A DNA stretch of 64,000 bases from Macrotis lagotis (lineage: Eukaryota; Chordata; Mammalia; Peramelemorphia; Peramelidae), in the NCBI RefSeq assembly GCF_037893015.1, contig NC_133660.1:283271534-283335533 (forward strand), in the 5' to 3' direction. Shown here one piece after another: positions 1 through 38,660 of the stretch. The notes beneath the pieces are model-generated. The model made no database searches, had not been told where the DNA came from, and was given only the letters and a program-made list of their open reading frames with translations. Position 1 is the first letter of the stretch. The number at the start of each line of letters is the position of its first letter. A program made the translations under genes and the position numbers.

Positions 1-2600
1 TTTAGCTCTACTGGTTCCCCCTCCCCAATACTCATTCTTTGCCAATTCCCCCTTCACCCCCACCCTGATTTGAGCCAATTCTAATGAAGGTCATTCACGA
101 GACAGAAGCCTAGGAGGTCAGTGCCCAATGAAGACAAGCCTTTCCCTTGGCCAGGATGCCCCTGAATGCTCTCCTATAGAGTTCTCAGCTGCTCCATCCC
201 TCCCCAAGAAATGGCCCCCAAGAAAATCTTACCAAGCCTGCCTTGAGCTGCTCCTCTTTTTCTTTTACTCCTGTTGAACCCCAGGAAGGAAGGGAATGGG
301 GGAGGGGCACCCCAGGAGTTGGCTTGCTTCCTTCTCCTCCATTCTAGCCCTGACCTGGCTCCAGGTTCTCCACAGGCCTCATCCTGGTACCTGCCATCAC
401 TTTTGGTGCTCACAAGGGCTCCTTGGCCTTTTAGGGTTCAGAACATAACTTACTTCTAACAGTGGTAATTCACCCCTTCCTTACGTCCACACTTGCCCCC
501 AATATGTCGTACAGACGAGGAAATCTCTAGAGATAGCAGATGCCAATTGTGCCCAGCCAGCCATCTTTCCCCTCTCTATACCATTGTTCTCCTCCCTGCC
601 CAAGACCACATGGTAAAATCCAGCCAAGGGGACAGAGCCACCAAGGACATTCTGACCATAGCAGACACCCTCCCAATCAAGGCTGGTATCTCCAGGGACA
701 CCCGACTGGGCCCTTTAAAGATGATTGAACTAATTCCCTCAATTTATAATTTAGGAAACAGAGGCTAGAAGGGACCTGTCCAAGGTCCCACGGTCAGTAA
801 GTTACAGAGCAGGTTCCGAACCCAGGTTTTCTCCCAATTGACTCCTAAGATGACACCCAGGCAATGCTAGCCCCCCCATCACAATTCTCCCTCTCCCCCC
901 ATGCCCAGGCCCCACTCACTGCTTCCCTGAAGGGTCCTGCTTGCTTGCTTCCACAGGGGATTGGAGGGATGGTCTCACATCAGGTGGTTGGAGGACACAG
1001 TGGAGTAGCCAGCCTTGTCTCATTCTGGAGGAGCCTCCTAAGCAGGCCCTCATGTCATTCCCCTTGACTGGGGAGCTGCCCGGGCCACAGAAGAAATGCA
1101 GGGGCCAACACACCTCTTGGCCTCCTTCCCAAAGATACAGGAGTACAGGGAGTGGGGTGGGGAAGAAGGGGAGCCAGGGTCCACGGGAAACTTTCCAGTT
1201 GGGGGAGGGTAGTGAGGGTAGAGTCAAGGGCTGGGGGAGGCAGGGAAGCCAAGAGATGGTACCAAGCCGGCAACCTCCCCATTGCCAGGCTGCCAAGGAG
1301 GCTTAGGGGCGGGTCAAGGGCATGCCAGCTCGGGCCTGCAGTCTTAAGGGTCGGGCATCCAGCATGAAGTTTGGAAGGAAGGCATTCTGATGAGAGCAAG
1401 GACAGTCAGTCAGGTGAGGGAAAGGACAGCTCCGGATCATTCACTTCACTTCTTTCCAGGTTCCCTTCCTACCCAAAGAAGAATTAGATTTATAACAAAC
1501 TCCAGCTGTCCAATCTGGTCAGGGTGAGCAGAACAGCCAGCAAACCTGAAGACAGTCATTCAGGGGTACCACTTGTGCCATGCTAAGGGTGCAGACGGTA
1601 CAGAGGCTTCCTGGAGGGGAGGGGGATTTTATAGATCAGGACATCAATTGGGGAGGCGGGAAAAGGGGAGGATTGTGCAGTCTTAGGAGCTTTGGAGGGG
1701 AATGGGCAACAGGAGGCAGTTCTGGGAGCTGGAGGCTGAACAGGTTACATCCTTGAGACCATGTACAGGGAGACTGTGCTTGGAGAAGAGGGCAGGTTGG
1801 TGCAATTGCGTTAAACCACACTATCTGAAGGGATGCCTTGGAAGGCTGAGACAAAACAAAATCCATTTGAAGAATAAAAGGGCATGAGAAACTCATGAGA
1901 AACAAAGGGGAACACTGGGGTGGGGGGCTTGGTCCTGCTAGCTCTCAGACTACCGTCTGAGGTCAGCGGGCTAACAGAAGGCAAGGCAACAGGACAAGTA
2001 AGTGGAAGAGGCAGGCCAGAGGCGAGCTAGTAGGGCAATGTATGGAAAAGCTAAGGTTAGAACCGCATTTCACGCCAGCATTCTCAGAAGGACAGAGCCC
2101 CCCCCCCCCAGCTCAGTATGAAGAGTCCCCCATGAGTTAGAATAGAAGTATGGACTGTTCCCAATGATAGGAGGAACCACTGCCAAACATGGCCTGGAAG
2201 TCATCCAATATAAAACACTGGCCTATAAGACCCAAAACATAGAAGCACCAGACAAACAGAATGGTAGTTAAGGAGTCAAAACGAGTTAAGGAGTTAAAAT
2301 GAGAAAAGACACCAACAGTCATGTGAACAGTGTTCTATTGATTAAGCTCAAATAAACATGGTGTTCCCTCTAGAGCATGGGACAAATCTGCCCATATAGA
2401 GCTAACAGAGGCATGAGGGTCCAAAATTCAGGAAAAGTTTCTAATGAAACTCAAGCCAATTAAACCCAAGGAGGTTGAGGGCAGAGAAGACTATGTTGGC
2501 TAAAGAATATTAGACCAGCCCTTCCAACCACGTACCAGATAAGCTCCAAAGCAACCCATGTGTCAGGTAAAGGCCATCTCCTCTTAGATCTATGGAAAGG
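1..2600. other. Flank with no recognised gene
   Basis: I see no coding exon, RNA gene or recent transposon here apart from a MIR-type SINE at about 735-860 and a run of ten or eleven C at about 2,100. Base composition is mixed, and it changes sharply to A-rich at about 2.6 kb where L1-like modules begin. If the NEAT1 call to the right is correct, the RNA's 3' end could lie here or left of position 1. I looked for a tRNA-like fold following an A-tract on the minus strand and found none. Confidence 0.5.
735..860 (-). repeat. MIR-type CORE-SINE fragment
   Basis: The block reads as a MIR in reverse orientation. It runs from 'ggaaacagaggctagaagg' through 'caaggtcccacggtcagtaa' to 'ttccgaacccaggttttc', matching the familiar reverse MIR series of gaaactgagg, aaggtcacacagc and cgaacccagg. 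It is old and diverged, with no visible target-site duplication. Confidence 0.75.
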
Positions 2601-2639
2601 GAAAAGTTCACTACTAAATGGGAAATGGAAATGATCACA

Positions 2640-2900
2640 TGATAAAATGGGCAGTTTTGATCAAATGAATTTTTAAAAGTTTTTGCACAAATATAATAAA
2701 ATCAGAAGGGGAACAGGTTGATAGGAAAACTCTTTGCAGCAAGGTTCTGTTAAAAAGGTCTCATATTCAAGATGAGCCTTTCTCAACAGACAAGTTGATC
2801 AAACAATATGAACACATAGCAAAGTAATGGAAAATTATATTGGAAACTGTCTAAATCACTAATAGAGAAAGGTAAATTAAAACAACTTTTAGACAATATA
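2640..2900 (+). repeat. L1 ORF2 fragment
   Basis: The stretch around 'aaaagtttttgcacaaa' and the following 'atcagaaggggaacaggttg', then 'aggtaaattaaaacaactt', matches the order of motifs in the C-terminal part of L1 ORF2. The frame is lost. Confidence 0.65.
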
Positions 2901-4789
2901 GTATCTAACAATTGGAAACCAAGCACATTATGATTTATGAATAGATTATTACAGGGCTGAAAGAAATCTGGGAACTTGTCTGAATAAAGTGCCTCAATCT
3001 TTCTAGAACAATTTATATAATGACAATATTATAGAGAAAAACCAATAGGCTTTAGAATTCTGAGCAACAGAATGATATAGCAAAATCCAGAGAAGTAAAT
3101 AGGAAACCCACCAGTCACCTTTAGAAGTCATGAGCTTACAATATATTTGGGGACATGGTCCATGGCATTATTTGTTCTGTTGGACTCTGCATCTTTATAT
3201 CTTTTGGAGGGTAGATTACAGGGAAAAACAGTTCTGTTCCTATTGTGGTGACAGAGAAGTCAAGAAGTTCACTATGAAGGTTAGGTTTACAGCAAAGGGG
3301 ACAATATTACCCAAATTCCTCTATTGAGCTGGTATTCCATTAGACTTGAATTAGAAAAAATTTCCAACAGATGACCAGTATCAGAGAAAACTAGAAGATA
3401 GGGTGTTTAGAAGAAGGATTTGTATGAGGAAATCTCAAAAGTATATAAAAAGTAGTAATCAAAAGCATGTAACTCCAGGTAGTAGACAGATTAAAAAACA
3501 AATTAGGCTACCTTCAGCTAGAACCAACCAACAGTTTGACAAATCCACGATCTTAATATATCAGGGAAGATACTGAATTTTTTAAAAAAGCAGAAAATTA
3601 AATTTTCGTGTAGCAAAACCTGTGTTGAATTCATCTCACATATCACAATTTCAATTCCAATTATATCAATAAAGTTACTGAAAAACTAGAAAATTCTTCT
3701 GATTCCAATAGACAAGTTATTTGATTATTAAATTGTACAAAATGAACTATATCCAAATAAAAAAGAAAAATGAAGGAGAATTTAAAGATAGAATCTTTGC
3801 AGTAAAAACTCCTGTGGACAAATAACCATAATCTCTTCTCAAGGCATATAACATTACTTTGTTAGGAGTTAAAGAAGTTACTGACCAAAGAAGAAAACTT
3901 TTTGTATCTAATATTCTTGGTTCTAAACAACCTGAGGCAAGGGACTGAATGAGTCTGCAAGTCAACATCCAGGAGTCTGTCCCCCAAGATATGATAACTG
4001 TAGTTTAGAGATATATGGGAAGAAATAAGGAAACATTAGTGAAGAAAGCAGAACTAAACCAATACACATACTGCCTGAAATTAAGTTTACAAAACTTGCA
4101 ATACCTGAGAGTTCAGGAAAATACCATGAGATAAAATAGAGGATAGCAGCCCTGGCCCAGAAAAAGGCTTTGAATAGCATCATGTATGTCCCACAAGCTT
4201 TGGGCAAGTCCGATGCTATGATATAAGCAGTTACAAGGGATGGGGAGGGTTCAGTTGACTGGTTAAGTCCATTGGAGGAGAGGGAAGATTGACTACCTCA
4301 AAGACACACTAGGGAATCTTTAAGGGGCAGATTATGAGGGGAGACTGGGAATGAGGCAAATGGCTTCACTGAAACATATTACCAGGAGATGCAACCAAAA
4401 AAAACCCTTAAAACTGAGATAGTGAGATAACTCAATTTTAAAATAATTTTGTCACAAAAGACAAGGAGAAAAGACATTTGTAATAATGGTAATATAGCAA
4501 ATACCAGGACATTTATCTACCAAGACACATAACTAGACCTATAAGACATTTTAAAAGTTGAGTATTTTAAATTTAAACATTTACTTTATACTAATATTAA
4601 AAATAAATATTTCATGTTATTTAAGTATTTTAGAAAAATAGAATAATTCAATAATTTTAGAGATTCAATGTGCATGGCTAGGTGAAATGAATATATTCTA
4701 CTTGTAATATGTAAAAAATGAATTTGCAAAAAAACCAAATAGTCAAAGGAAATTATGAGAAGGAAAAAGAAAGGTAGATTTGTATGACA

Positions 4790-5280
4790 ACATTTTTGAA
4801 TATATTATGTATCAGTAATCAAAACAACATGGTACCAGTTAGGAATAAGAAAAGGACATGGATATAAAAGGTCACTGAACCAAAATCAAACATGTAAGAA
4901 TAATGACAATAATAAGAAAAATGTATAAGACTATTCCATGATCAGAAAAACTGATGTTTATAAAATAAAACATTCAATAAAAAACACATCAGGTAGAGAA
5001 GACAAAAATTTTTTTTAAAAAATGTTTAGTCAGGTTATCAAGTCACCTAAACTATGATTACAAGTGTGCCACTGTCCTAAATTGTGACAAAGAAACCAAG
5101 AAATTAAGGGAAAATATTTGCAAAATACATTTGGATAAAAATCTGACACCTAAATTTATAGTGTTATGATTCATTAACCCAAAAGACAAAAAAATGGTCA
5201 AAGGAACCGAACAGGCAATTCTCAGAAGAAAACAAATCAATAACCACATGAATATGCTCAAACTCTAGCAAAAGGAATGT
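4790..5280 (+). repeat. L1 ORF2 C-terminal fragment
   Basis: The order 'cagtaatcaaaacaacatgg', 'tggtaccagtt', 'acacctaaatttatagtgtt', 'tggtcaaaggaaccgaacag' and 'gcaattctcagaagaaaaca' follows the L1 ORF2 region that encodes the segment before the end of the protein. It is diverged, carries many breaks, and has the same orientation as the other modules in the array. Confidence 0.75.
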
Positions 5281-7084
5281 AATTTAAGCACTAGGATGTT
5301 CTTCTACTATTCATAGGGAGAAGTTAGTGAAAATATAGAATCCAAAGATGGTGGGGACTGGGGTAAACAGATTTACTATTCCCTGGTTGCGAGAAATTTT
5401 TTTTTGAATGTGATACGAGGTTATTCATAGCAAAATGAGAAATAACTCATTCCTTCTACAGCTCTAACATCATACATTTTTACTGACTGCAATACATAAA
5501 TAGCAAATCACATAAAAAAAAAACAGAAAAGTTTAGACAGGACAAGGAAGAGAGGAAGAATGTACCTTTTTTTAATGTATCTTTCTTAAAACCTATTGCA
5601 AGAATAGAAGTTTAAAGATTTCTTTAGATTTTTTTTATTTATTGACAGTAATTTTTTTTAAAACAAAGAATAAATGAATATTTATTATAAATGACAAAAA
5701 TATATTAAGTACCCTCTCTTTTAGATGTCTTTGGAAAGTTTGGAGAAATTAGGAGTTAGTCCAATGTAGTAAACTTTAGATGGCAACATTACTCACACTA
5801 CTTGTAATATGTAATATGGTATTGCATTAAACTTCTATACCAACATGCTGCTTTCACAGAACTTGATGAAAATAGAATACCCAAAATAGGACATTATTGT
5901 CTCAAAAATGATTTCTCTGGAAGTGAGGGATACTTGAAACATGTCCAGATGCTAACACGTGCCCTTTAAATCTCTTTATCAAAGTTACCTATTTTCAAAT
6001 AATATTAGAAAAGGAGAACAGAAAACTGAAATAGAGATGAAATAAACTGGTATTGGAGAAGATCAAAATTCATGATACACTGAGGAAAGAATATGACAAA
6101 TATACTAGAAATTTTAATTATCTCAAATTATAAGAACTGGGAAAGAATGGAATGCTGTAGTTAACTTTGCTTCAAAATTCTCAAGTATTCAACCAAGAGA
6201 GAAATCACAGGCAGAAAAATGCAAGTTGTCAGAAAAGAAACTATTAAGATTGCTTGCCATCTTGGGGATGAAAGAAATCTGAACCTCAATCTTATGAAAA
6301 AGGTTGTTGAAAGCCATCTTTACATATAATTGAAAAAATATTGCTTACCAAAAAAAGGACGAGATTTGCCACACATATTTGAGTCTGTGATCTGAAATCA
6401 GTACTTTTAAATGGTCAAAGGACATTAATGAACAATCTGAGAAGGAAAAGTATTGAATTTTCATACAAAGAAAAATACACAGACAAGAGCTTCTCTTCTC
6501 TAAGAGAGCCCAATCTGGGGGCTAGGGGGATTTTAAATTGGTTTTGAGGAAAGGCTCATGGGAGAGGAAAAAACAAAGGTAAATCAGGAAATAACTGGCA
6601 CATAATTGAATGAAATGAAATGACCTAAGCAAAGCTCAAAGAGTCAGCCTGTCCACAGGTAAATTTGTATGGAATCTCTGTTTTTTAAGTAAATAATAGC
6701 ATATTAGAAGTAAATGAATCTATGTAGTTACATAACAGCAAATCATTTAAGAAATCAAGGGCTACTTTGTTACTGCTTTGTTAAAATTATAGAGATTTTT
6801 TGAAAAATCTTATTTTGTTGATCCTTAACTACTAATACTTCTATGGTACAGTTCTATAATACAATACTAAGTTAGTTGTAAGGCACCGAGTTAGATTTGA
6901 AGAGTGGAGCACCATCAGCTGGCGTTGTTTGACACAATGCTAACCTGAAGCACATGAAACCTTAGAAATAGAACATTGCAACAACAGAAAACACGGGGGC
7001 ATTCACCTAGACATACATGTAACCTGTAATCAACTTTACCAAGTGCTAGATATGTCAGAGATTCAATGAACCAGATGGCTTCTC

Positions 7085-7285
7085 CCCCCTTTAGTTGTTT
7101 TTTCTTTCACAATATGACTAATATGGAAATATGTGAAACAAGATTGTCCATGTATAACCTATGTCATTTTTATGATCATAAGGACGTAGAAAAATATAAG
7201 ATTCAAAAGCTTATATAAAAAGATGTTGAAAAACATGTTTTGCATGAAATTGAAAAAATAAAATTATATAACTTTAAAAATAGAA
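7085..7285 (+). repeat. L1 3' UTR end
   Basis: The block 'ttttttctttcacaatatga', 'ctaatatggaaatatgtgaa' and 'gtccatgtataacctatgtc', ending in 'gaaattgaaaaaataaaat', is the characteristic 3' UTR and tail of marsupial L1. It is one of the better preserved L1 ends in the A-rich region. Confidence 0.75.
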
Positions 7286-7510
7286 TTAGGAGTCAAGGGC
7301 AATCCTATACTATTCATCAAGTAGAAGAATTATAAGAAACAACACAAATGGATTTTATCATGTGAGAATAAAGAGCTATCGTAAGCAAAATTTAAAACAT
7401 CAAGGGGAAAAAGGCAAGCAAATGTTTGGGGTTAGGGAGGGAGTATATCTTGGGAACAAAGAAAATTTCTTATCCAAATGTAAAATATTCATTTTTCAAA
7501 TAATTAGGAT

Positions 7511-7698
7511 ACATTCATTTTTTTTTTTTGCAAGACAAATGGGGTTAAGTGGCTTGCCCAAGGCCACACAGCTAGGCAGCTAGGTAATTATGAAGTGTCT
7601 GAGACCGGATTTGAACCCAGGTACTCCTGACTCCAGGGCCGGTGCTCTATCCACTGCGCCACCTAGCCACCCCATGCCACCTAGCCGCCCCCATTCAT
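7511..7698 (-). repeat. tRNA-derived SINE (WSINE1-like) with doubled head
   Basis: This is a reverse copy of the abundant marsupial SINE. A T-run is followed by 'gcaagacaaatggggttaag', 'gcttgcccaaggccacacag', 'ccggatttgaacccaggtac' and 'tatccactgcgccacctagc'. It is flanked by a short repeat 'attcatt' on each side. The head of the element (the right end as drawn) is present twice, 'gccacctagccacccc' then 'gccacctagccgccccc', a small local duplication of the 5' end. It lies within the putative NEAT1_2 body. Confidence 0.9.
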
Positions 7699-7799
7699 TC
7701 TTAATAGAAATACAAATAACCTCATGGAAGTCTTTAAACAAATGCAAACTAGAAAAACTGCCTTAATATTCTCATAGTCCAACTGGCCAAGATTGTGAA

Positions 7800-8145
7800 A
7801 GACATCATTCAGTTCTGGTAGAGCTGTGGCAAAATGGACACACTGCACTGGCACTGGGGCAGCTGGAAAGTGGCATGATCCCCTCAATGCAATATGGTCC
7901 CATACAATAAAGAGCTGCCACACTTCTAATGCCTGATTCCACTCCTAGGGCTATGCTTCAAGCAAATATTTTAGCAGGAATAAGATTATTCCAAACAACA
8001 AAAATCTAGAAATCCCCATGTCTAACAAGTGAAGAGTGGCTGAACAGAATTAATGACTGGACAATAGCTGAACTCAATCATAAACAATCTATTTGGAAAA
8101 AATAACAAAATATGAAACTAAAAGGATTATCACATTGACCATAAT
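7800..8145 (+). repeat. L1 ORF2 end-fragment
   Basis: The text runs 'tctggtagagctgtggcaaa', 'gattccactcctagggctat', 'gaaatccccatgtctaac' and 'gtggctgaacagaatt', in the same order as the last 300 bases of L1 ORF2 ('tggtagagctgtg', 'attccactgctagg', 'atgcccatcaattgg', 'aatggctgaacaa'). It is diverged. Confidence 0.65.
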
Positions 8146-10069
8146 TATATATATCTATGTTCAAGAGACAATTGTTATGACTATTTAAAGAATACAAATC
8201 TTGGGGTTTTTTAAATTTTGAAAACTGCCAACTGCCCAATACATTATAGTATATAAACCAATGGTTGTCATTTGAAGCCTGGGAAAGGTCACTACCTCCT
8301 GGACAGTGGGACAGGGGAGAGAATAGAAGATGTGAATGGAGGAGACAAAAACCATTTCAAAGTTACATAAAAAGCATATGGGAGGTAGGCATCTGGTTTG
8401 GTACAAAGTCTTAGGAGGAAGAAGGTTATCAACAGCTGGGCTCAGTACAGGGCAGGGGCAGGTTGTGAGCCTGTTGATACAGTTCAAGGGAACCAATATG
8501 TTCGGTAACCACACACCACAAAGAAAAACGGCATCTACGTGTTCAGCAATAAATGATGCTTTCCAATGTATTTAGAACCATGCTTAGAAGGGACATGTGA
8601 ATTCTTTTTTTTTTTTTAAATAAAGGTGCTGAAAAATTTCAAATCAACAAATTCTGAAATAAGCACTGAAATACAACTCTGAAAATGACCACCAGGATCA
8701 TAGAAACCAAGCCATACTACCAAAGGGTTATTATGCTCTATCACCAGGTGAAAACTACTAATAATAGCAGTTAGTAGTTTTGGAAAAATGGAATGTAAAG
8801 TATACACAAAAAATAGTCAACATTTCTATATGCAGTCTCTGGAAGAAAGCATTTTAAAACTGGTTTGTTTCAATGGAAAGGTATTAAGAACTAGTACTCC
8901 AGTCTAAAACCTGGACGTGAATGTGAAGAGCTATGAATAAAGAGAGAATTAAACTGAAAACATAAAAGAGTCCTTTCATCATATGGAATGGATTAGGATA
9001 TTGTTCACAGGGAGGCAACCCTTTCCATCTTGGAGGACGGTATTAGAAGAAATTGAGTAAAATTGTCTTAAGTGACCATTGTTCTCTTGTAGATGGAGTA
9101 GAAGAGAAACTCAAAATTGGATTTTTTTTTTTTATCTCTGGTTTATGCTGTTCTATAGTTCAAAGGTCCTAGAAATGTCATCTCAGACTGTCTTGGTATA
9201 GAAGACTATATTGTATATGAGAGTATTTCTCTAAGATAGAAATGTTTGGATATATACACACACATATTATATAATTACAATTTAGAAAAAGAATTAAAGC
9301 AGATAAGGAAACAATGCACATGACTGAAATCAGCATTTTAAAAAGCACACTAATTCATCATTTTGTTGTTATACTAAAACTTAGCATCCCGGGACTATCT
9401 CTGATAACAAAACTATAGAAATGCTCGATAAAAGAGAAGAAAAATCTACCATCAACAATGAAATTTGGTGGGTTTTTGTATATTTGTTGTTCAAGTTTAC
9501 CTATCACTTAGAATACATTAATTGAATCATACCAATGACTGTTCCTGGTTGAAGCCCAAGAAAGGCCAAGAAACAAACACATCAAAGAGAAACACAGGTA
9601 AACACACAGACATACACATGTTACAGAAAAGACATATAGGCTTTTGGAGCAGTAAATGGATTTGTCTTCTAAAGGGGTAGGGTTCTTTCAGGATCATCCC
9701 TTGGGATTCAGTTCCCACAATTCTATGCATCTATGGTTTTTAGAGTCCAATGTTGGGGCAATCAAAGCTTGGATTAGACTTTAGTGTGGTCTATATACCA
9801 CCTCCTCAAAACACAAAAGAAAAACTAATCTAAACTGTAAGTAATCTTAGCAAAAACAGGATAAAACTACAAAACCAAACATTTTACAAAAATCTTTTCT
9901 TAAATAGATGTGTAGAAATATCATTTTCAAAGACATAATAGATATTTGAGTTCGGTTATGAATGCACTTTAGATACATAAAGCCGATCATAGATCAACCA
10001 ACTGGAGGAAGACAACATTGTAGGGAGGGCAAAACCATGCCTAGTTACATTCAATTTGCTTTTTCAGAG

Positions 10070-10520
10070 CCTGGGTGTCAAGGCTCCTTCACAGACCATT
10101 CCTGATGGGTAGCAGGTTCTGCTGAGTTTGAGTACTTCCTCAAGCAACTATGGGACGTGGGATCTTGGGCAAGTCAGTGACTCTAAGGGTGCTTTTCTTT
10201 TCAAAAATACAGATCCTAGGATTTGTCTCTCAACACATTCAATTTTGATCAGTGTATAGCATGGAAACAATGTAAAGATGACCAGACTGCCTTCTGTGGG
10301 AGGAGAAAATGTGTAAAATTCAAAACCTTACCAAAAAAATGATCAATAGAAATTATTACTGTACATAATTAAAAAACAAGTAAAATATTTACATAATAAA
10401 AAACCAGATCCTGTCACCTACCTTCAGAGATTATAAAGAGGAACAAATCAAACAGCTTGTGTATCGCTCTTTGCAACCTTAAAAGTGCTGTATAAGTTTA
10501 GCTATTATGATTACTAATAA
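10070..10520 (+). repeat. CORE-SINE (MIR-type) copy
   Basis: The tRNA-like part is eroded, but 'cttgggcaagtcagtgactc' and the tail 'ccttaaaagtgctgtataag' followed by 'tttagctattatgattact' identify a CORE-SINE in plus orientation. Similar copies lie at about 14.3 and 17.8 kb, in the same orientation. Confidence 0.6.
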
Positions 10521-11686
10521 ACAACATTTATACACCAAATGGAAATGTTCATGAGGGAGAAGGGGGAATCTAATACAACTAGATCTCAAAATATATTCTA
10601 AAGAAAGAATCAAAACCACATAATAGACATTTGTATCAACAGATCAGAGAAAATCACCTAAGTGGTGCCAAAATATTAAACTGAAAATGCTAGTATTTCA
10701 CAGGGAGATAGAGTCAAACACTGGGGAAGGGATCCATTATTCAATATACAGAAAACTGGAGAGCCAAAAGCGGCAGTCAGACATCAATACCACAACACCT
10801 GCCTCAGTGGGTTGCAAATGCAGGTCACCTATTTTAAAGCTATATCTTAAAATATTAGGACCTGATAGAATGCTATATCATAGTTATATGCCGGGGAGAA
10901 ATTCTTAGCAAATCAGGATAATCTAAATTTGATGAAATTTTTTTAATGTGGAAAGAAGTGAAATATTAAATTCATAATGACCATGATTATACAAACTATA
11001 AACATTAAGGGAAAAATACACAAATGTTTGGAAGATTATGATCGTTATGGCTTTTTAGAGGAAAAAAATTTGTCATACATAAAAAAAGCTTGGTTTTGTT
11101 GTTTAGTTCTAAGTTCTTATATTCTAAAATTAGCAACCTCTAAGTTTACTGCAGAACTGAAAATCCAATTACTAGTACTTGAAGCTCGGGAAAGGTCAGT
11201 GCAGAATAAAATGGTGGATCAGGGAAGATGCCACTAGCAAGCAGTATTTGACATGGGCTTTAAAGAGTTTTGAGGGAAGAATTTCACAGACATTTGGGGG
11301 GGGGCAGGTGCTAGGGAGAAGGTTGAAGGGTTAGATCCATGGAGATCATCAGAATAACACCTTATAAATATCAAATACAAGCCTAACCCTTCCCTGTATT
11401 ACTCCTGGCAAAGTTTTCAAAAGAGGCAGGAGGAGGGTGGGGGTTGGCAGGGAGAAAAGTTGGGCAAAAACAGAATAAACAATGTTTATTTGAAACATAA
11501 CTTTTGACAGAGAGAAACAGATGGGGTACAAGGCCGAGAGGAGAGTCACGATCAGCTGGGGCTATGAGGGCTAATATATACATATCAAACTGAGTGGGGG
11601 GGACTCAACATCAAGACAATATCTTGAAATCTTGGGGTCCTCAAGTAGGGGAATTGCGGGGATGTACCACAGCCCTATTAGGCTGT

Positions 11687-11717
11687 ACATACACACATAC
11701 ACACACACACACACAAA
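11687..11717 (+). repeat. (CA)n microsatellite
   Basis: A run of CA dinucleotides with two interruptions. In a minus-strand transcript it would read (UG)n, the preferred binding sequence of TDP-43, which is a known NEAT1-binding protein in eutherians. Confidence 0.9.
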
Positions 11718-12379
11718 CAGAATCAGAGGGCAGCAAACTCACTTTCCTCCTCCTTCCTAGCAACACTCAGAGGAAGAGCTGAGGTAAATGAGTTTCATGG
11801 GATTCAATTCCAACACCGTTAAGCATTTCCTATTCACAGATCCTTAAACTGACTAATTTGGGGAAAATAAAGAAAAAGTGAGATTGCAGTCAATCCCCCA
11901 TTACAACCATGACTACTAATACCATAACACAAAGAGATAAAAAAGCAACTCATCAAAACACAGTACTAAGTAGATTTAGCAAAAACAGGATGCCAGGAAG
12001 CCCATAAGACTGTCAACATCCCTATAGCATTCTCTAAGTAAAAACAGCAGGAAGAAAAAACTAATCAAAGACCATTTACAACAATAGAATCTGTTAACTT
12101 ATTTGGGAATTCATCAAAAAACATGTATGCCTTCAGTCAATAATTAAACTAGACAGAGTTAATGTACATGATTACCAAAAGAGTTCATTGAATTTTGCTG
12201 CCTTCAAACCAAAAAATACTCTAAAGGACTAATCAAAACTAATATTAAATAATATACATGTATTATGACTACAGAGTTATATTAGATAAAAATAAGAAAT
12301 GAGCTGTAAATCAAATGAAATAACCCTATATCAACTAAATGCATGATTTTAATGACCAAAACTATCAAAACACCAGGGA

Positions 12380-12830
12380 AAGGATACATTATCTTACAGA
12401 CTGGAGAGATCTCACAGTATACATTCCAAAACAAGTTATCTAAATGTTTTTAATGACTGAAATATCTAATGATCAAACTGGCAAAGATAACAATAAAAGA
12501 CACACTGGTAGTAGAGCTATGATAAGAGACTCATCATGCTGCTGCTGGAGGAATTTCCTCAGTGAAACACAGATCATACAATGAAAAATGCAAGGTTACT
12601 TAGACCTTTTTACCACATGGACTGGTCTCATTCAGCTATGCAAGGCAGCATTATCTATAAGAAACCCCTGGAAATCCACATGTCTAACCAATGGGGAGAA
12701 GTCAAAACAATTGGAATACGATGGAACATTGTTGTACCATAAGAAATAACAGTCATGAATAAAACACGAGAAGATAATTAAATACTGTAGAACCAAAATA
12801 ATACTCACATAGACCACAGTTTTATATTTA
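12380..12830 (+). repeat. L1 ORF2 end-fragment
   Basis: 'gatcaaactggcaaagataa', 'ctggtagtagagctatgata', 'ctggaaatccacatgtctaa', 'ccaatggggaga', 'gatggaacattgttgtacca', 'taagaaataacagtcatgaa' and 'tagaaccaaaataatactca' lie in the exact order of the L1 ORF2 3' end. This is the clearest single module in the array and a good reference for aligning the others. Confidence 0.75.
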
Positions 12831-13712
12831 AACTACAAATGCTAAGGGAGATGGAGGGAAAGATAATGCTTATTAAAGAGAATTTTAAAATTATAATTAA
12901 TGGGTTTTTTTTATAAACCTTTTGTTTTATAGCCTAAAATTGCTGGCATATGTTATACAGCTAAAAAACGTTTTGCTTCTCAAGGCCCAAGAAAGGTCAT
13001 TGCTGAATAAATGGAAGTAACTGCTTTAACAAGTTTGGAGGATTCTAATTCCTGAGTATGGAGGGAGAGTGGAGAAATGGCTCAGGGAGAAGACAAATCA
13101 ATGGCAACTCGAAGGTAAACCTAATAATCTAATAATAATAGTCAATAATAGTAAACCTAATAATCTAAAGACATTATAAGGGAAGTTACAAGAAACCAGG
13201 TACTCTGGGTAGCAGGTGAGCTGGGGTTAGGAGTTGGAACACATACATATAAAGGTTGAAGACTCAGGGGTTGAAAAGCACACAATATGGGAGACTCAGA
13301 TAACGGGTTGAGGGGACATGTGGGCAGTCACATGTACATACACACCTAACAAAAGTTTGCCTGGAATTCAGAACAGTAAATGGATTATGATCTCATCTAA
13401 CAGAGAGAGCACCCTCGGAACAATACTATGGAGAATAGGGTTCCTTCAGAGAAATAAGGACACATGATCTTCCAAAGGGATAGAGTCTTTATGGTCATCT
13501 TTGGCATCTATGGGGTGTATCTATGGGTGGGCAGCTCTAGTACTGAGAGCAAATCAAAACAAGGATTAGGTTCCATTCATGGTCTGTGGGACAACGGTGA
13601 CTAATAGATCATATTAGTAAAAAGACAATGACAAAATGGATTTGTCAAGAGAAACAAGATGAATATGAAACTATAAATCATTCTTTTAAAAATACTGTTC
13701 TTGACCAAAAAA

Positions 13713-14175
13713 GAAATTGATGAAGATACCATTTATGATAACTGAATACACACTTCACCCACCAAGACACAATAGGTTATATAATTCAAACTCAAGTCTT
13801 TGGGTAACTTTTTTTTTTTTAAAGAACCATAGCAAGACATTGGTGATATTAAAGTGGATTCAAAAGAATATTTGCAGGGGCCAGATTCATAATGACCTCA
13901 TATACCAGGAAAAAATACAAATATTTAGGAGATAATATTTTTTAGAGAAATTGATGGAAATACCATTTATGACACAATTCACAATTCACCTAAGACACGA
14001 TGGGCTTATATAATTCAAACTAAGTCTTTGGATAATTTTTTTAAAAGAACTATGACAAAACATTAATGACATTAAAAGCAGATCCAAAAGAATATTCACA
14101 TGGGCCAGAAGTCTAATTATTACATATACCTGGAAAAAATACAAATATTCAGGAGATACTGCTTGTTTTTTAAGA
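13713..14175. repeat. Direct tandem duplication, two units of about 234 and 229 bp
   Basis: Unit 1 (13,713-13,946) and unit 2 (13,947 to about 14,175) both begin 'gaaattgatg' and then 'ataccatttatga'. Both share 'ttatataattcaaact', 'aagtctttgg', a T-run followed by 'aaaga', 'ccaaaagaatatt' or close to it, 'gggccaga' and 'ggaaaaaatacaaatatt'. By eye identity is in the range of 80-90%. The units abut without a gap, so this is a local duplication and not two insertions. They contain one of the recurring array anchors. Confidence 0.85.
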
Positions 14176-14269
14176 GAATACAAATATACTTTAAATAGAG
14201 ATTATAAAACTCTCCTTTTACAGTTGATTTTATATTGCATTCTTAGTCCCTAAATTACTTCCCAGACCA

Positions 14270-14475
14270 AGGCAGCAGGGTGGGTGGAGTCAGTGAAGTC
14301 TGGAGTTTGAATCCTGACTGAAATTTACTAGCACGATAGTAAGTCCCTTAAATCTCTCAAGGCTTCAATTTCCACAACCATGAAACAGGGAAAATAAGGA
14401 TCAAAGGAAAAACCTTAAGTAAAACTCCTTAAGAACCTTAAAGGTTATCCAGAAGCTATCATCATCATCATTAAC
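14270..14475 (+). repeat. CORE-SINE (MIR-type) copy
   Basis: 'gtctggagtttgaatcctga', 'taagtcccttaaatctctca', 'ggcttcaatttcc' and 'aaccttaaaggttatccaga' give the MIR series in plus orientation, including the conserved tail. A TCA repeat follows it. Confidence 0.65.
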
Positions 14476-17665: not shown

Positions 17666-17779
17666 AAAGGGTTTGGGAAAACTCAAGGTACAGGAGAGAA
17701 CGATTCTAACTGCTGGCGAAAGTTCACTAAAACCTGCCATCAAGGTTCTAGACCTCAAAGCTCTTTTCCTCCGTAACAA

Positions 17780-17940
17780 ACCCGGGAGACCCAAGTTTCA
17801 GTGCTGCTTCAGATCTCTACTAGCTGTGTGACTCTGGGAGATCATCAGCTTCTTCATTTGTAAACTGGGGAAGAACGGTGCCTTTCTCCTAAGGATCCTC
17901 ACAAGGAAAATACTTTACAAACTTGATAAATGCTACTAGA
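17780..17940 (+). repeat. CORE-SINE (MIR-type) copy
   Basis: 'ctagctgtgtgactctggg', 'cttcatttgtaaactgggga', 'agaacggtgcc' and 'actttacaaacttgataaat' form the MIR body and tail in plus orientation. Confidence 0.75.
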
Positions 17941-19126
17941 ATGAAATAAAATCTGTACAACAAAGTAAGAGGAAATGAGTTATATTTATTAAGTTAGATT
18001 GCAAAATAGTCTAATAAAACTCTAAGGTCAATGAAACAGGTTGTCAAATGGAAACAGGCCTATACAGGGCCGTTTGAGAAACTCAGTATCACAAAGCATA
18101 TGGGAAGGGATGCATTATTAGACAGGAAAACTCAACAGTAATTGCATATGGAAAAACTCACATTATGTGTCCAATTAAGCTACAAGCCTCTAAGTGATCT
18201 CAATCATAATTATACAGGTGGGAAATCCTTACCTACTCAGAACAAATAGCACTATTATGAAGACTAAGTAAATATGCTTTATCTTAAGTCTGGCATCCAA
18301 AACAAAGAATTTATACATGATCATTTTTCAAAAGATAAAAACAGGCAGAGGATTTAAAGATGCCATTTCCAAAATGACAATCAGGACCTAGACAAAAGCA
18401 TTCAATCAAGTCAGAGTAATGCCAACTGGATAAACACTGGACAATGGCACAACACACCAAACAGCTGAGGATCCCCACAAGTATGTGATGTGATAAGTAC
18501 AGAACTAGGGGAAATGAAAATAAAGCAGAACAGAAAGAATGCAAACTCTAGGGGAAAAAACAACCAAAGGCAATAACGATACTTCCTCACATGGGAAGGA
18601 TTAAGGTTAGAAAGGAGACAGTGGATAGGGTTGTCTTTAGGTTCAATTCCTACTAAACCTGGGCTCTTTGCCCAGGGATACTGACCTTCCTGAAGTCCTT
18701 CACACCAGCTCCTGCACCTCCCAGTTCTGGCCATTTTAACTATCCATCTCCTATGCTTCCACCTCACTGACTCTCCAGTCTAGATCTTGTGTCTTACCAA
18801 AAGGCAAGGAAAATCTTGCCTCTTTATATCTCTAGAGCTTAGCTCAGGGCCTTACAAGCAGTAGTTGTTGAAATAAATACTGATAACTTCTTGACGGATA
18901 AATAATAAGTGAAATATTTACAACAGAACGCACAGAATATTTGGACTTGCAGAGAAATCAATTGAATAGTGACTGTCAATACGCACAGCTAGATTCAACC
19001 TGATGACAAAAATATTAAGACCAAAATTGGTTCATCGATTTTGCATCATTATACTGAGTCTCTGTAACCAGACTACCTTACTGAATTTAAATAAAATTTG
19101 TGTAACATATGAAAAAGGAAATCATG

Positions 19127-19309
19127 GAGAGAAGGGAGACTTAGGGCAGATAGAGCACCAGCCCTGGAGTCAGGAGGACCTGAATTCAAATCCAGACTCA
19201 GACACTTCATAATTGCTTGGCTGTGTGACCTTGGGCAAGTCACTTAACCCCACTGCCTTGCAAAAACCAACAAGAAAAAAAATGAAAAAAGAGAGAGAAG
19301 GGAGACTTA
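19127..19309 (+). repeat. tRNA-derived SINE (WSINE1-like) with 17-bp target-site duplication
   Basis: The full tRNA-related body runs from 'gcagatagagcaccagccct' to 'cttaaccccactgccttgca' with an A-rich tail. A perfect 17-bp direct repeat, 'gagagaagggagactta', flanks it at 19,127-19,143 and 19,293-19,309. This marks a fairly recent retrotransposition into the putative NEAT1 body. Confidence 0.93.
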
Positions 19310-22113
19310 AAGCAGTGATCTAACTACTCAACATTAGTCATAAAAATGAAAATATCTGTGAACACTTAAGTGACCTTCAAGTAGAATTGAATCTCTATAT
19401 GACAACAAAGGTCTTCTATTACTCAATAAAGGTAAACTGATGGCAGTATTTGGGGTGGGAGAGGACAGACAAGAGCACATGCTCTATTTCAAATGAGGAG
19501 ATAATAGATTACTGGACCTATCCCATTGAGTTAGGAAAATTTTCAGCTGGAAATTACAGGAAATAAAGTAAATGATTGCATAAGAAGTTTTGAATAAGAA
19601 AACACAAAACTCTACAATAAAAAGGGCAGGAGAAATAAGCAAAAAAGAAAAAGAAGCAACACATCTACCAGCTCAAAGATGACTCCATAGAACAAAGGTT
19701 TCTCATGGAGCCAACAAGGAAGCCAGGACAGATGTTGGGCCTAGATCATCCACATGGCTAGCCAAGGATGGTAACCAGGTTTTTGCTAGTTGTTCCCACC
19801 AAGGAGTGTTTGGGAATGACAGTGATGGACAAAAGGCTGCAAATAAAACTACATAGACACACGGCTATAAATCCTTTAACTGTAAAAGGCTCAGCTACTC
19901 ATGTTAACAATGACACGGATTAAAGTAGGATTTTTCCTACAATATGTTTGTTTTGCATGACTTCCTCTCTCTATATATAATATTTTCTGCTTTCTCATTG
20001 GGATGGAAAAATGAAAAGGACCCAAAACTGAAAATAAATTGGAAGAAAAATGGAAAGAGCCTTATGCTTTCTACCAAACACGTGCTCTATGTAGCTCACA
20101 ATCAGACAAGAGGCACAAAATGTAAGAATGAGGCAGTGATGATTAAGTTGGGGGAGATTAGAAAAAACAGGAGACAAGGCAGTGAAGGGATGGGAGGAAG
20201 GATGGATGACCAAGCAGGCACAACTAGGCATGGCAGCTTCCTCCCCAGGAGCTTCAGGAGAGGAAGCTACCCCTTGAGACCATGAGCACACAATAGACTA
20301 CAGGATAAGTTAGAGAAGGGTAGCCTGAGTCTCAAACAAAGGTGAGCTGATGAGAACCTCCCAGATACAAGGCCTGCCTTCCCTGTGGACCAGAGTCCTT
20401 CAGTCTCTTATCCAGCTCCCAAAACACCTCTTGGGAGGGAACAAAAGCAGAAAGGCCTTGACCCAGCTTAGTCCAGGGTCTTAGCAGATCAAACAAGAAA
20501 GGCAGCTCCTGACAGGAGCCTGTGAGGACTTCTACACCTCAATCTCTAGCTGTTCCTTCACAGGTCTCTACAAGTGGACTGATGGGTGGTTCAGAAGCTA
20601 ATGACTCCTCAGCCTCAAGTCTTTACCAACAGTGCCAAGTATAGGAGAAAGCCATATGAAACCCCAGAGGACACGAGGGCACACCGACAAGAGCAAATTT
20701 CTCTGACCCAACACCCTGGTTACTTAGAGCTCCCGGGAAGCAAGCTCTTGGGGTGGCTCTATGGCAAAGCAGCCTGGGAGGGAAACAGGCCTGTTCAGCA
20801 CTAAGCTGGGATGGAAGAATACGCAGTGGGGACCAGCCAGCCACAAAGCAGTTCAGGAAGAACAGGTAAACCACAGGTTTATTTATGACAACCAGACTGA
20901 GGTTTAACAAGAAGGATCCCAAGCCCTTTCCTGGACTGGGCCTACACAAGCTCTCTAAACTAGCATTCAGCAAGATTAAGAATCTTGTGCTAACTTAAAT
21001 TTTCTTCCAAATAGCAACATGTTAAGTCCCTGTAGCACATGACACCAGTGGGATTATTTCTTAATACAGGTTTGCTTAGACAAGTCACTTAAACCCCATT
21101 GCCCAATAAAAACAATTTTTAAATGGGAAGGGCGGAATCAGATATAATTGACATGGGAGCCCTTGAAAAGGCTTCCAGTCCCCGAAGGACACCATTTGTC
21201 CTCACTGCTTGGCTAGTTTACCAAGGCCAGGAACCTTTGCTCCACTCCCAATTTTCCCACCTGACATTGTTTCTGAACCATTATCACTTGTATTATTTTT
21301 TTAACCCATCAGCTCTTTTGCATTATTTTCTGAATTATTCAAAGTAAACTCAAGATTATTGGTTTCTGACAGCTCCCCACCTAGTACAGAGGCAGAAAGG
21401 CAATTTCAGAATTTCACTTTATCACAGGATCCAGCATCATAGTAATATCATATCAGTGAAACCAGGGATAAATATTGGCTCACCTGAAAACTCCAGTCTG
21501 GCACTAAGGAAGAAAAAACAATTTAGAGCTTACTTACTTGTATTCTGGGGACATCTGGACTTGCTCTAGATATAACGGGTGGGTGAGATTAGGTCTTATT
21601 TTGACCTAAGGTAAAACCCTTGGAGAGCATGTACCCCTAACCACTCCCCAAACCAGTTGGTTCATTACTCAGATTCAAATTCAATCTTTACCTTTGGATG
21701 GGGAGTCAAAAGTTTCAGAACATCTATAGCCCTTAGCTTCAGTTTTAGGCTATTTTGATAAGCAACCAATACATATTTACCATTTAGATAATAAAATTTT
21801 AACTCCAATAGTAAGTATCCTGATGCAATTAATAGCATCTAAAATAGTACAGGGGCTTCAGGTCTTGACAGCTTTGTTGCTAAGACCCGAGCCTGGGTTC
21901 TCTCCCCCAAGAGGCCAAAAGGCTGTAGCTATCAGATTCACATATCCCCAAGTGCAAAAGAATCATTGAGAGAAGATGGCACCAAACCAGAAAGGAAGCT
22001 AAGAAGTTGTTCACAACTCCTCAAATTCCCCTAACATTCCACATTTCAGATCTGTTACCACCCTGAGTTTGGCACCCAGAAGTCTCAAGTAACCCCAGTC
22101 CTAGAGAGGAATA

Positions 22114-22119
22114 TTTATT
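22114..22119 (-). terminator. Candidate poly(A) signal AATAAA
   Basis: Minus-strand AATAAA about 3.69 kb from the predicted NEAT1 start, close to the human NEAT1_1 length. A moderately G/U-containing stretch follows it. It is one of four competing signals. Confidence 0.3.
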
Positions 22120-22641
22120 TTCTATAGAGTGTTATGAGATCATCCTGCTCCTGAGACGAACTCAAGCAAAAGCTCAGATCAAACCAAAATCATCCATTCC
22201 GATGCCCCAAGGCAGAAATGCTACTGTATTGGTTCAATTCACTGCTGCCCATGTATCCTTTGAGGATGTTTTCACATTATCAGGTACCAGTAAGTAAAAT
22301 TCCCACCTGTCCCATTAATTCATTTGCATCAGAAACACTTGGAAGTATTAGAAATACAAGGCTCATAGCCTCTCTGAAGCAGTTCTTTAAAGACCCTTAT
22401 AAACACAAAGAGGAATACAACCAAGCAAGTTTGACACAACTCCACCAGGTAACCCAGCTCACCAAGTACATATGGGTTAGGTCATTAAAAGAAGTACAAT
22501 CTCTTCACAATATTGTATTATTAAAAAAGCAAAAAAAAATACCATATTCCGCATCCCAACTGATCCGACAATTAACAGTAAGTAGCACTCATACAGGTAC
22601 AAAGATGTGAGAAATACAATAGCAACATGACAAATTAAATT

Positions 22642-22647
22642 TTTATT
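22642..22647 (-). terminator. Candidate poly(A) signal AATAAA
   Basis: Minus-strand AATAAA about 3.16 kb from the predicted start, near the mouse Neat1_1 length. It is followed on the minus strand by a U/G-rich stretch ('gtcatgttgctattgtattt') that would serve as a downstream element. Confidence 0.35.
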
Positions 22648-22781
22648 TGTGCTGTTTAAAGGAGAAAAATGTTACCCAGTTACAAGAGACCCCCAGTTCA
22701 AATCAAGATACAATAACCTAGACTTATACATTTCTAATACTTTCTACCTTGTCAAGTAAACTAAGAAAACTTCCTGTTTAG

Positions 22782-22787
22782 TTTATT
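22782..22787 (-). terminator. Candidate poly(A) signal AATAAA
   Basis: Minus-strand AATAAA about 3.0 kb from the predicted start, with a U-rich stretch downstream ('gttttcttagtttacttg') and no UGUA motif immediately upstream. Confidence 0.25.
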
Positions 22788-23156
22788 TGTATCATGCACC
22801 AATTCTCAAATTCACCTAAAGACTTGCCAAGTCACAAAATGAAAAGATGGCATTAGATGAAAGGCAAACTTGGACCATCAGGGCTTACTGGCCTATGATC
22901 CTTCAAAGCTGTTTTGGCAAAGGAACAAGATACAAAGTAACTAATGTTCTAAGCAGTAAGTTAGAGAACACTTTAAAAAAAAGCAAACTTATAAAAGCAA
23001 CTAAGGACAATGTAGTCCCCCATTTCCTCCTTAGAATTCTAAGTTAAATCTATTTCACAGTTTTCCAGACCTTAGTTACAAGTCATCCAGTCCAACAGTC
23101 CAAAAAGCACATCCCTTTGTTCCCCCCAAATTCACAGGACAAGGAGTTGATGATAC

Positions 23157-23162
23157 TTTATT
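23157..23162 (-). terminator. Candidate NEAT1_1 poly(A) signal with UGUA cluster
   Basis: AATAAA on the minus strand, preceded by 'tgtgtatgtatgaac' and 'cattgtaaatctc'. That gives three UGUA motifs within about 45 nt upstream, the last less than 10 nt from the hexamer. Downstream, 'ccttgtcctgtgaatttggg' is G/U-rich. UGUA is the binding site of the CFIm subunit NUDT21, which promotes NEAT1_1 processing in human cells. Confidence 0.45.
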
Positions 23163-23548
23163 GAGATTTACAATGACCCATGGAGTTAAGTTCATACATA
23201 CACACCATATCCTTGCCTTCCCAATGAATGGCCATTAAAACCCCAGGCATCCTAGAGAAAAATTCTTGGTTCTTAAAACCTTTTGTAAAAGCCATTTTTG
23301 TCACCTGTTTGCCATGAAACTTTAAGTAGAGAAAGTCCACCTTCCTAATTTCTAAGTCATTCTTTGTTGCCAATGAGTTAAACCCTTTATACGGCTGGTC
23401 TAAGAAAATTGTACTGTTACTTATCAAAGCCCAAGATGAACCCTTTTCCTATGTTCACAACTGCCCGGATAGGCCTCACTTGCCAAAGCAAGTTCTCTGA
23501 TGGCCCCAAAGGCATTTCTATCTCGCATCCATTACCAACTAAGTTTTT

Positions 23549-23727
23549 TGCTTTAGATTTGTTTTTTTTTAGGTTTTTGCAAGGCAAATGGGGTTAAGTA
23601 GCTTGCCCAAGGCCACACAGATAGGCAATTACTAAGTGTCTGAGACCAGATTTGAACCCAGGTAACTCCTGACTCCAAGGTCGGTGCTTTATCCACTACG
23701 CCATCTAGCCGCCCCTGCTTTAGATTT
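23549..23727 (-). repeat. tRNA-derived SINE (WSINE1-like) with 12-bp target-site duplication
   Basis: A reverse SINE copy from a T-run and 'aggtttttgcaaggcaaatg' to 'tatccactacgccatctagc'. The direct repeat 'tgctttagattt' lies at 23,549-23,560 and 23,716-23,727. It is a young insertion about 2.1 kb into the putative NEAT1 transcript, in the same orientation as that transcript. Confidence 0.93.
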
Positions 23728-25829
23728 CTTTCTGGCTGCATCAGGTCTAGTTCATTTGTGGTGCTTCTAGCAACCTCCCCCCTCCTCTCCCAACATCCAC
23801 TGGGCTCCACCCTAACCCTGCCCTCCCATGTTTATCTCCCAAACCCAGCCTAGAAGTTTGCCCTCCCCTCCCCAATAGAGGAATAAATACCCTGTCCCTT
23901 CCCCTCCCACTCAGATTTGGTCCATATTCCAACCCCCCCAAAGCAGCTAAGCAAGTCAAATACAATTAACTGACCAGCTTGCCCTTACTCATTAGGGTGA
24001 CTGAGGTAATTACCTCCATTTAACACCCTTCTCTGTAGATCTTAAGACCCAAAGGGGCCAAGTTCCCCATGAAGACTAATCCAACCTCAGGATTCTTGTG
24101 CCCACCCACTTCTATTGTCTAGACCCTCTCTTCCGAACTGCCTGCCCAGTCCCCCCATGTAGATAATTCTTCTGTTCCACCGAACTGCATCAGCACAAAA
24201 ACCACCGGCCACTCTAGTAATGAGGTCCGTCTCAAGTTCAGATTTTAGAGTTTGTAGCATCAAGACAAGTTTTACTGCTGTCTTCTTGCAGAAAGAGTTC
24301 CTTATCACCAAACTGGAATTAACTTCTGCGAAGAAGCCTCAAATTTGGAAGATGACACCTGACCAACCCAAGCCCCTCCCACCTCAGACACTTGAAAAAG
24401 CTCAGCAGGTCTGCCAGCCTCAAAAACCACATGGCAGAGGGCACCAAAAACTTCAGGGCAGCAAGCAGCCCACCCCCAGCAGATAATGCAGGGATGTGAG
24501 CTGGACTCCTTTCCTGAGGTGGCTCACTGACAGCTGAGGTCGAATTAAAAACACACCCATCTGAACATTTAAAAGGCCAGCAGCCTTAATTGCAGAACTT
24601 CCTGAAGGGGCTCTGCCAACATTAAGCTGCTGGAACTTTCTTTACAAGACAGGAGGCATCAACTACGAGGGCTCTGAAGACAAGGGAAGCTTGCTCCTTC
24701 GGCTCTCTCCCTGCTGAACTGCTTGCTAGGGACTCACATGGGACAAACCGCTCCATTTCTGATTGGTCCGGATGAACACTACAATCAATCATGTTCCAAA
24801 AGGCATTTACTTAACTGCAATACTCACTGAGGAATTTGCCACCCAAGCCCAAGATCAGCAAGTCAAATCGGGTTGGAGCCCCGCCCACTGCCCATATTGG
24901 GATCTGGGGTGGGGGAGGGTCTTCACTCTTAGGCTCCTGCCCCACCCAAGGGCTCAAAAGAGCTCTCCCTAGCGCTGCTGCCAAGCCTCTGGTTCAACCC
25001 ATCCTGATGCCAGGGGGAACCAATCCAGAGGCACCGCTGAGGGCAGAGGATGGTTTACTTACGCCTCCCCCGAACCACAAAGACCTAGACACCCCAAACT
25101 TAGCGACTGACACCCTCGGGCAATAAAGGAGAAGCAGAGTAGAGGGAGCAGGCTGGGGCGCCCCTAAGGAGCCCTGGAAGAACCTGCAAGATAAAAGCCG
25201 TCAGACCGCGCCCCCCGGGCCGGCCCCGCAGCGGGCGGCCCCTAGGTCCTCCTCGGCGGGCGCACAGGGGCTGCTGGGGGGCGCCGCCCGGCCCCCCTCG
25301 CCCTTACCTACCACCCTGAGCCTGCAGGGCTAAGTCCTTTCCACCAGCGCTGTGCTCGCCAGCACAAGCTCCTGGGGTTTGCCAGTCTCGCACCCCAGGC
25401 CGCTCCACCAACCCTTTGCCTAGAAGAGAAAGTGACTGCTGGGATGAGCCGTTCCGACTCAGCGCCCCCTCCCCACGGCCTCCGGGCGCCCCCAGGCCGC
25501 TGAGCCGGCCAGCGGGTCCCGCCCGGGCCTACAGCCCAGGCCCCACGGGCCGGGGTCCCCCCGGGCCCCGCTTCCTCCCTCCATACAAACCGGGGCGCCC
25601 GTGTGGGAAGCGCCCTCTCCCTTCCCTCCTCCACCGGGCATGCCAGCAGCGGTGGCGGGGCTCGGCCCCCTCCCGCTGCCCGCGGCCTCCGCGCCTGCGC
25701 TCTCCTCCGCCCGCCCCTCTGAGCTCCCCCGCCAGCGGCCCTCGCTCCCGGCCCCGCCCCCGCCGGCTGCGGCCCACGCGCCTGCGCTGTCGCCCCCTGC
25801 GCTCTGGTCCGCGGCGCCCGCGGGGCCGC

Positions 25830-26400: not shown

Positions 26401-26425
26401 CGCGGCCCGCTCCCCGGGGGCCAGG

Positions 26426-38649: not shown

Positions 38650-38660
38650 TTTTTTCTTTT

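Follow-up and report, generated by a model that had tools for sequence, protein, structure and literature searches.

The window (the whole 64,000-nucleotide stretch of Macrotis lagotis DNA analysed here) is best explained, taken as a whole, by a peramelemorphian NEAT1, that of the greater bilby, lying on the minus strand with its promoter at about 25.81 kb, and with an assembled length of 44.9 kb that is most likely due to a false duplication. We hold this reading with high confidence. The window is predicted to contain the 5' end and nearly the whole of the gene. NEAT1 RNA is the builder of nuclear bodies named paraspeckles. A sequence-only reading had already proposed a marsupial NEAT1 here, and this identification is supported by ordered matches to two conserved NEAT1 regions, by FRMD8 upstream on the same strand, and by a putative menRNA with a triple helix downstream, with MALAT1 beyond. 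Marsupial NEAT1 has already been published from opossum, koala and other species, and the present locus would be a further marsupial member; our literature search found no published account of NEAT1 in a bilby or a bandicoot.

Promoter, conserved 5' regions and the predicted short isoform

A CpG island (25041..26860) spans the predicted promoter and 5' end, as identified in 200-base sliding windows over 24001-28680 with GC > 0.55 and CpG observed/expected > 0.6. Within it, as the sequence-only reading had described, the TATA box TATATAAG expected of a NEAT1 promoter occurs on the minus strand at 25836-25829, and we place the putative start site about 30 bases downstream, at 25806.

Behind the TATA box, on the same minus strand and downstream of FRMD8, are matches to NEAT1 conserved region 1 (NEAT1_1, RF01955; 25303..25442; 34.0 bits) and then, in the expected order, region 3 (NEAT1_3, RF01957; 24591..24781; 31.5 bits). 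Both fall below their gathering scores of 50 and 55; E-values are 0.012 and 0.32 in a scan of 1-30000, and 0.0017 and 0.043 in a scan of 21800-25900. In the former scan they have the top two bit scores among 13 Rfam matches, with 4227 families searched, and rank first and third by E-value; in the latter no other of the five matches has an E-value as low as theirs. The earlier statement that no primary-sequence match was recognisable therefore needs amending, at scores below cut-off. The NEAT1_2 region (RF01956) gave no match at E <= 10 in either scan, and neither Rfam at gathering threshold nor ARAGORN found anything within the window. Whole-genome searches, intended as independent proof, are only consistent with the identification: the locus was first of seven places reported for NEAT1_3 (19.7 bits, E 1.8) and fourth of seven for NEAT1_1 (18.6 bits, E 5.0; three other places score higher), at a loose threshold at which 2 of 14 and 5 of 14 prokaryotic control genomes, respectively, also had matches.

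The predicted short isoform (also called NEAT1_1; 22119..25806, minus strand) would be polyadenylated at one of four AATAAA signals, at 23162, 22787, 22647 and 22119. Their distances to the predicted start are 2645, 3020, 3160 and 3688 nt, as in the sequence-only reading (2.6-3.7 kb in), which suits a short isoform of ~3.4 kb. Their number is statistically not unusual (four in nt 1-3800 vs a shuffle mean of 1.5, range 0-5, n = 200 shuffles), so they count as polyadenylation signals by position alone. Over the long part, 14 polyadenylation signals occur in the sense direction vs 24.5 expected (5 of 200 shuffles were as low), and the antisense strand shows no depletion (69 vs 59.5 expected); the sense-strand depletion lends weak support. 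A young SINE (23564..23715, minus strand) lies within the predicted short isoform; all 40 genome places scored, out of 4747 first-look candidates, match it, namely itself and 39 others at 93-96% identity. Its position is mildly unusual, since a 2025 NEAT1 survey reports transposable elements in the short isoform in only 49 cases (PMC12941219).

The 3' end, neighbouring genes and other readings of the locus

Searching the whole genome (3.66 Gb; 68 of 902,276 first-look candidates scored) for mascRNA-menRNA (RF01684) returned two places at E <= 0.001, both on the minus strand of the window's contig, 43.6 kb apart, and both above the gathering score of 42.5. The site outside the window at C3:283252453-283252402 (64.2 bits) is the predicted NEAT1 menRNA, marking the 3' end of that gene, and the other (79.1 bits) the predicted 3' end of MALAT1. 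With both sites so assigned, this search points to no NEAT1 homologue placed elsewhere relative to FRMD8, the finding that the sequence-only reading had named as contrary to it. The NEAT1 triple helix, located by a pattern scan from C3:283252537 on the minus strand (also outside the window), comprises in order U-rich 1 TTTCTTTT, U-rich 2 TTTTGCTTTT and an A-rich tract AAAAAGCAAAA abutting the tRNA-like element, under what we take to be the definitions of these motifs. This pattern, composed after viewing the two 3' ends, occurs twice in 134 kb (both strands), each time immediately 5' of a tRNA-like element. That scan found no full signature in the window, where searches for 3'-end motifs gave scattered single motifs only. 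Beside the second tRNA-like element is a MALAT1 Rfam match of 56.0 bits (cut-off 70). MALAT1 resembles NEAT1 in its triple-helix core, tRNA-like element and strand, but is a separate neighbour with its own mascRNA and its own, albeit sub-cut-off, Rfam match.

Because the menRNA and triple helix lie beyond the window, the 3' boundary previously drawn at 2600 appears to be wrong: region 1-2600 would still be within the gene, the predicted RNase P site is outside the window, and the long isoform (NEAT1_2) would occupy 1..25806 of the window on the minus strand, with its 3' end beyond base 1. Region 1-2600 is GC-richer and becomes G-rich approaching base 1. Both gene ends are G-rich, as has been described for NEAT1 (PMC12941219); a strict G-quadruplex count, which is not comparable with published pqsfinder counts, gave four sense and two antisense. 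The earlier claim of 23 kb without coding sequence held up in a Pfam scan of stop-to-stop frames of >= 70 aa in 1-26000 (60 scanned out of 67); only one of the 60 had a match at E <= 0.01, a marginal one (0.0035).

Upstream, the minus-strand FRMD8 of the sequence-only reading is borne out by two putative exons with a FERM C-lobe (50940..51941). Two minus-strand frames there match the halves of KRIT1_FRMD8_FERM_C (PF24522) in order, at 51558-51941 (profile 2-21, E 0.0022) and 50940-51239 (profile 21-60, E 0.00014), each singly below the curated cut-off. Among 10 whole-genome matches at E <= 10, both halves occur only here and at one place on contig C7, which is probably KRIT1. One FRMD8 frame compared with solved structures gave a single irrelevant match (E 0.3), and 10 frames scanned for the gene beyond FRMD8 (all nine of >= 70 aa starting right of 60000, plus one more) gave one marginal Pfam match (E 0.096) and no identification. 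The NEAT1 locus thus sits between FRMD8 and MALAT1, all on the same strand, an arrangement that matches published synteny in order and strand (PMC10869381, PMC12941219).

From the sub-cut-off 5' Rfam scores one could argue that NEAT1 is confined to the menRNA end beyond the window, and that the region itself is unrelated intergenic DNA or some other lncRNA. We consider this very unlikely, given that the NEAT1 regions hold the top two bit scores in the larger scan, in order and on the predicted strand, and given the conserved order and strand of the three genes. Less probable still, to the point of being hardly credible, is that FRMD8 itself extends into this stretch, as a long 3' UTR or by read-through; the two are adjacent and on the same strand, but the CpG island and TATA box intervene, and the NEAT1_1 match begins 364 bases past the predicted start site.

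Probable false duplication across the gap, and gene length

Self-comparison revealed that the stretch 1..14291 (minus strand) occurs twice, on either side of a gap of 4,115 Ns that bounds the repeat, with 99.72% identity over 14,304 columns. Eight substitutions and 24 indels separate the copies. One indel is 8 bases long and the other 23 span one or two bases; among these 23, 19 adjoin an identical base and four do not. A 1801-base piece of the repeat is found at two genome places, and a control of 1601 bases, taken from unduplicated sequence, at one. NEAT1 is 44.9 kb as assembled and about 26.5 kb with the duplicate collapsed, which replaces the ~23 kb of the sequence-only reading and puts the gene end ~0.7 kb past the window's left edge. 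The published range of 14.5-36.5 kb includes the collapsed length and excludes the assembled one. It was the self-comparison that led us to abandon 44.9 kb, which we had initially accepted. Since near-identical 14.3-kb stretches flank the gap, we judge this length most likely false; the repeat probably represents two overlapping contig ends left unmerged. The authors of the assembly suspect residual false duplications, and report a BUSCO duplication of 4.9%, possibly due to low HiFi depth (PMC11239497).

It is also conceivable, but in our view unlikely, that the NEAT1 identification is right and the duplication real, i.e. a recent tandem duplication of ~18.4 kb yielding a NEAT1 of ~44.9 kb with a doubled core, longer than any in the survey. 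The assembly as given does show two copies, and since long near-identical repeats do cause assemblers to break, even a real junction is expected to carry a gap. If the junction lay in the gap, a genuine tandem duplication would look identical to an unmerged overlap; the repeat limits at the gap edges fail as an argument to separate the two. What weighs against a real duplication is that 44.9 kb exceeds the survey maximum of 36,456 bp for NEAT1 and lies ~3 SD above the mean of 30.7 +/- 4.6 kb for three marsupial orders (PMC12941219), whereas 26.5 kb fits marsupial lengths; the scarcity of substitutions, the predominance of one- or two-base indels and the BUSCO figure point the same way.

Proposed function and comparison with known NEAT1

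Under the preferred reading, with an unmerged overlap, we hypothesize that RNA polymerase II would start within the CpG island, from the TATA promoter at ~25.81 kb, and read leftwards. The short isoform would end at one of the AATAAA signals, and passing them would give a transcript of ~26.5 kb. RNase P would cleave this ahead of the tRNA-like menRNA, and a U-A.U triple helix would shield the new 3' end. The long RNA could then scaffold paraspeckles, its G-rich ends forming the shell and its U-rich middle the core. NEAT1 is typified by an abundant, unspliced nuclear RNA that nucleates paraspeckles with NONO/SFPQ, and the putative bilby transcript would be of this type. Transcription, isoforms, cleavage and paraspeckles are extrapolated here from other mammals, and the model is anchored in observed gene order, sub-cut-off 5' regions, triple-helix and menRNA sequence, and composition.

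The NEAT1 of the opossum Monodelphis domestica (KX036207.1, Cornelis et al. 2016), for which paraspeckles are reported, has a pair of active polyadenylation signals spaced by about 500 bp (PMC12941219). The bilby pairs 2645/3160 (515) and 3160/3688 (528) are similarly spaced, although the opossum belongs to another order, Didelphimorphia, and was set beside the bilby by description rather than alignment. Other marsupial NEAT1 loci (koala, survey genomes) share the gene order, triple helix, menRNA and, once collapsed, the length. Likeness to human and mouse NEAT1, taken from papers and Rfam rather than from alignment, extends to the NEAT1_1 and NEAT1_3 regions, the 3' processing elements and the neighbours; however, the bilby 5' regions are similar only below cut-off, and the NEAT1_2 region was not found in the two scans.

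The survey covered 545 genomes and searched 17 marsupial genomes of four orders for NEAT1 and MALAT1; the orders named in its methods do not include Peramelemorphia (PMC12941219). The present locus would add this order to the NEAT1 record, with the layout of both gene ends. A NEAT1 length taken directly from the assembly would be a record 44.9 kb that is probably false; were it true, a NEAT1 of this length with a doubled core would be a natural test of how NEAT1 length sets paraspeckle size.

Neighbouring genes and the 5′ end

NEAT1 is already known from marsupials, with reports for opossum (2016) and koala (2024) cited in a 2025 survey of the gene that covers marsupials of four orders and looked for NEAT1 and MALAT1 in 17 marsupial genomes (PMC12941219). 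Peramelemorphia, bandicoot and Macrotis are absent from the survey's text, and a literature search with most subscription journals and all supplements outside its scope found no paper on bilby, Macrotis lagotis, bandicoot or Peramelemorphia NEAT1.

According to the accessible survey text, FRMD8 adjoins NEAT1, SCYL1 adjoins MALAT1, and NEAT1 and MALAT1 share a strand (PMC12941219); FRMD8-MALAT1-SCYL1 on one strand is given as the order in most tetrapods in the part consulted of PMC10869381. In the bilby, 98 minus-strand frames of 70 aa or more overlap 26000-64000, and we scanned 67 of them. The KRIT1/FRMD8 FERM C-lobe is divided between two collinear frames at 51.9-50.9 kb, the only two of the 67 with this family, and another marginal match occurred in one frame. 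Among 10 whole-genome matches, both halves lie together at only one other place, on contig C7. These frames bear out the minus-strand FRMD8 proposed in the sequence-only reading, which also correctly noted a CpG island with a minus-strand TATA box at the predicted NEAT1 5′ end; the island spans 25041-26860 and the box (TATATAAG) lies at 25836-25829. A 64-bp minisatellite (4.2 copies, 98%; 26416-26681) lies inside the island, ~0.6 kb upstream of the predicted start.

That reading had recognized no sequence match to NEAT1. An Rfam search of 1-30000 at E up to 10 did identify NEAT1_1 (25442-25303, minus; 34.0 bits, E 0.012) and NEAT1_3 (24781-24591, minus; 31.5 bits, E 0.32), though both are below their cut-offs. 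The two are collinear and have the top bit scores among 13 matches; a plus-strand KCNQ1OT1_1 match (E 0.055) pushes NEAT1_3 to third by E-value. Confined to 21800-25900, the search gave them the lowest E-values of five matches (0.0017 and 0.043). NEAT1_2 (RF01956) was not found in either interval at E up to 10. In differently scored whole-genome searches, among the best 46 of 315,471 and 37 of 169,602 candidates scored, the locus ranked fourth of seven for NEAT1_1 and first of seven for NEAT1_3, neither significant by itself. At the same threshold, of 14 prokaryotic genomes used as controls, 5 match the NEAT1_1 model and 2 the NEAT1_3 model. The weight of the 5′ evidence lies in two putative NEAT1 regions located where the neighbouring genes predict them.

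The 3′ end, MALAT1 and gene length

The mascRNA-menRNA model reported two places genome-wide (E <= 0.001; best 68 of 902,276 candidates scored), both on the minus strand of the same contig (C3) and outside the window, which occupies C3:283271534-283335533: C3:283252453-283252402 (64.2 bits) and C3:283208782-283208726 (79.1 bits). Two archaeal control genomes match below the cut-off. Because a MALAT1 Rfam match (56.0 bits, E 0.00014, under the cut-off of 70) lies 3.5 kb upstream of the 79.1-bit site, we assign that site to MALAT1 mascRNA and the other to NEAT1 menRNA. A triple-helix pattern, composed after inspection of both 3′ ends, occurs twice in 134 kb scanned on both strands, each time immediately before a tRNA-like site. 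Together with the 5′ regions, the menRNA and triple helix uphold the proposal of a minus-strand marsupial NEAT1. A sub-cut-off MIR5062 match (37.7 bits) at locus L005:8987-9194 (minus) appears by eye to be two inverted SINE pieces, not a microRNA.

The NEAT1 3′ end is thus outside the window, and the end formerly placed at 2600 is wrong; the GC-richer 1-2600 is still inside NEAT1 and grows G-rich toward the 3′ end. With the second copy of a 14.3-kb stretch removed (the collapsed gene), G fractions are 0.13-0.20 in the 6-24 kb bins and rise from 0.24 through 0.32 to 0.37 across the three bins that close the gene (final bin 486 bases). G enrichment and G-quadruplexes are described for both NEAT1 ends in the survey text consulted (PMC12941219).

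From the predicted start to the RNase P site, the assembly has 44,886 bases, including a run of 4,115 N (C3:283267419-283271533), either an assembly gap or withheld sequence, whose last N directly precedes the window's base 1. In self-comparison, transcript positions 11516-25806 recur at 29922-44206 with 99.72% identity over 14,304 columns (8 substitutions, 24 indels). A 1801-base piece of this stretch has two genome places (E <= 1e-20), and a 1601-base NEAT1 piece outside it has one. The available text on the assembly (PMC11239497) gives gap sizes as estimates and a BUSCO duplication of 4.9%, "possibly" from low HiFi depth limiting false-duplication removal. A true tandem duplication would give the same picture; we consider it very unlikely, mainly because the assembled 44.9 kb exceeds the survey's longest NEAT1 (36,456 bp; PMC12941219), whereas the collapsed 26,486 bases fall within the published marsupial range. 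With a probable false duplication, the gene would be 26,486 bases long, and neither this nor the assembled length agrees with the ~23 kb first proposed, which ran from 25803 to 2600.

Short isoform and repeats

The poly(A) signals anticipated for a short isoform are present, with AATAAA at 2645, 3020, 3160 and 3688 nt from the predicted start and GTGTGTATGTATG ~40 bases upstream of the first. Pair spacings of 515 and 528 among them resemble the ~500 bp between two polyadenylation sites in opossum, an arrangement reported for every marsupial that the survey covers (PMC12941219). In the long part, 14 sense poly(A) signals were seen versus 24.5 expected (5 of 200 shuffles equally low). GTGTGT occurs 22 times in sense versus 0 in antisense, and TGTGTG 17 versus 3, a bias due in part to strand composition. 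The gene body also contains an imperfect tandem pair at 13712-14158 (224-bp unit, 79% matches).

The predicted short isoform contains a young SINE (23564-23715) with 93-96% identity to 39 other scored genome places. An inverted relative lies at 6.5 kb, itself inverted to another at 18.1 kb (82-83%). By analogy with human NEAT1, whose inverted Alu pair is described in the survey (PMC12941219), these inverted SINE pairs may work in a similar way in the bilby gene.
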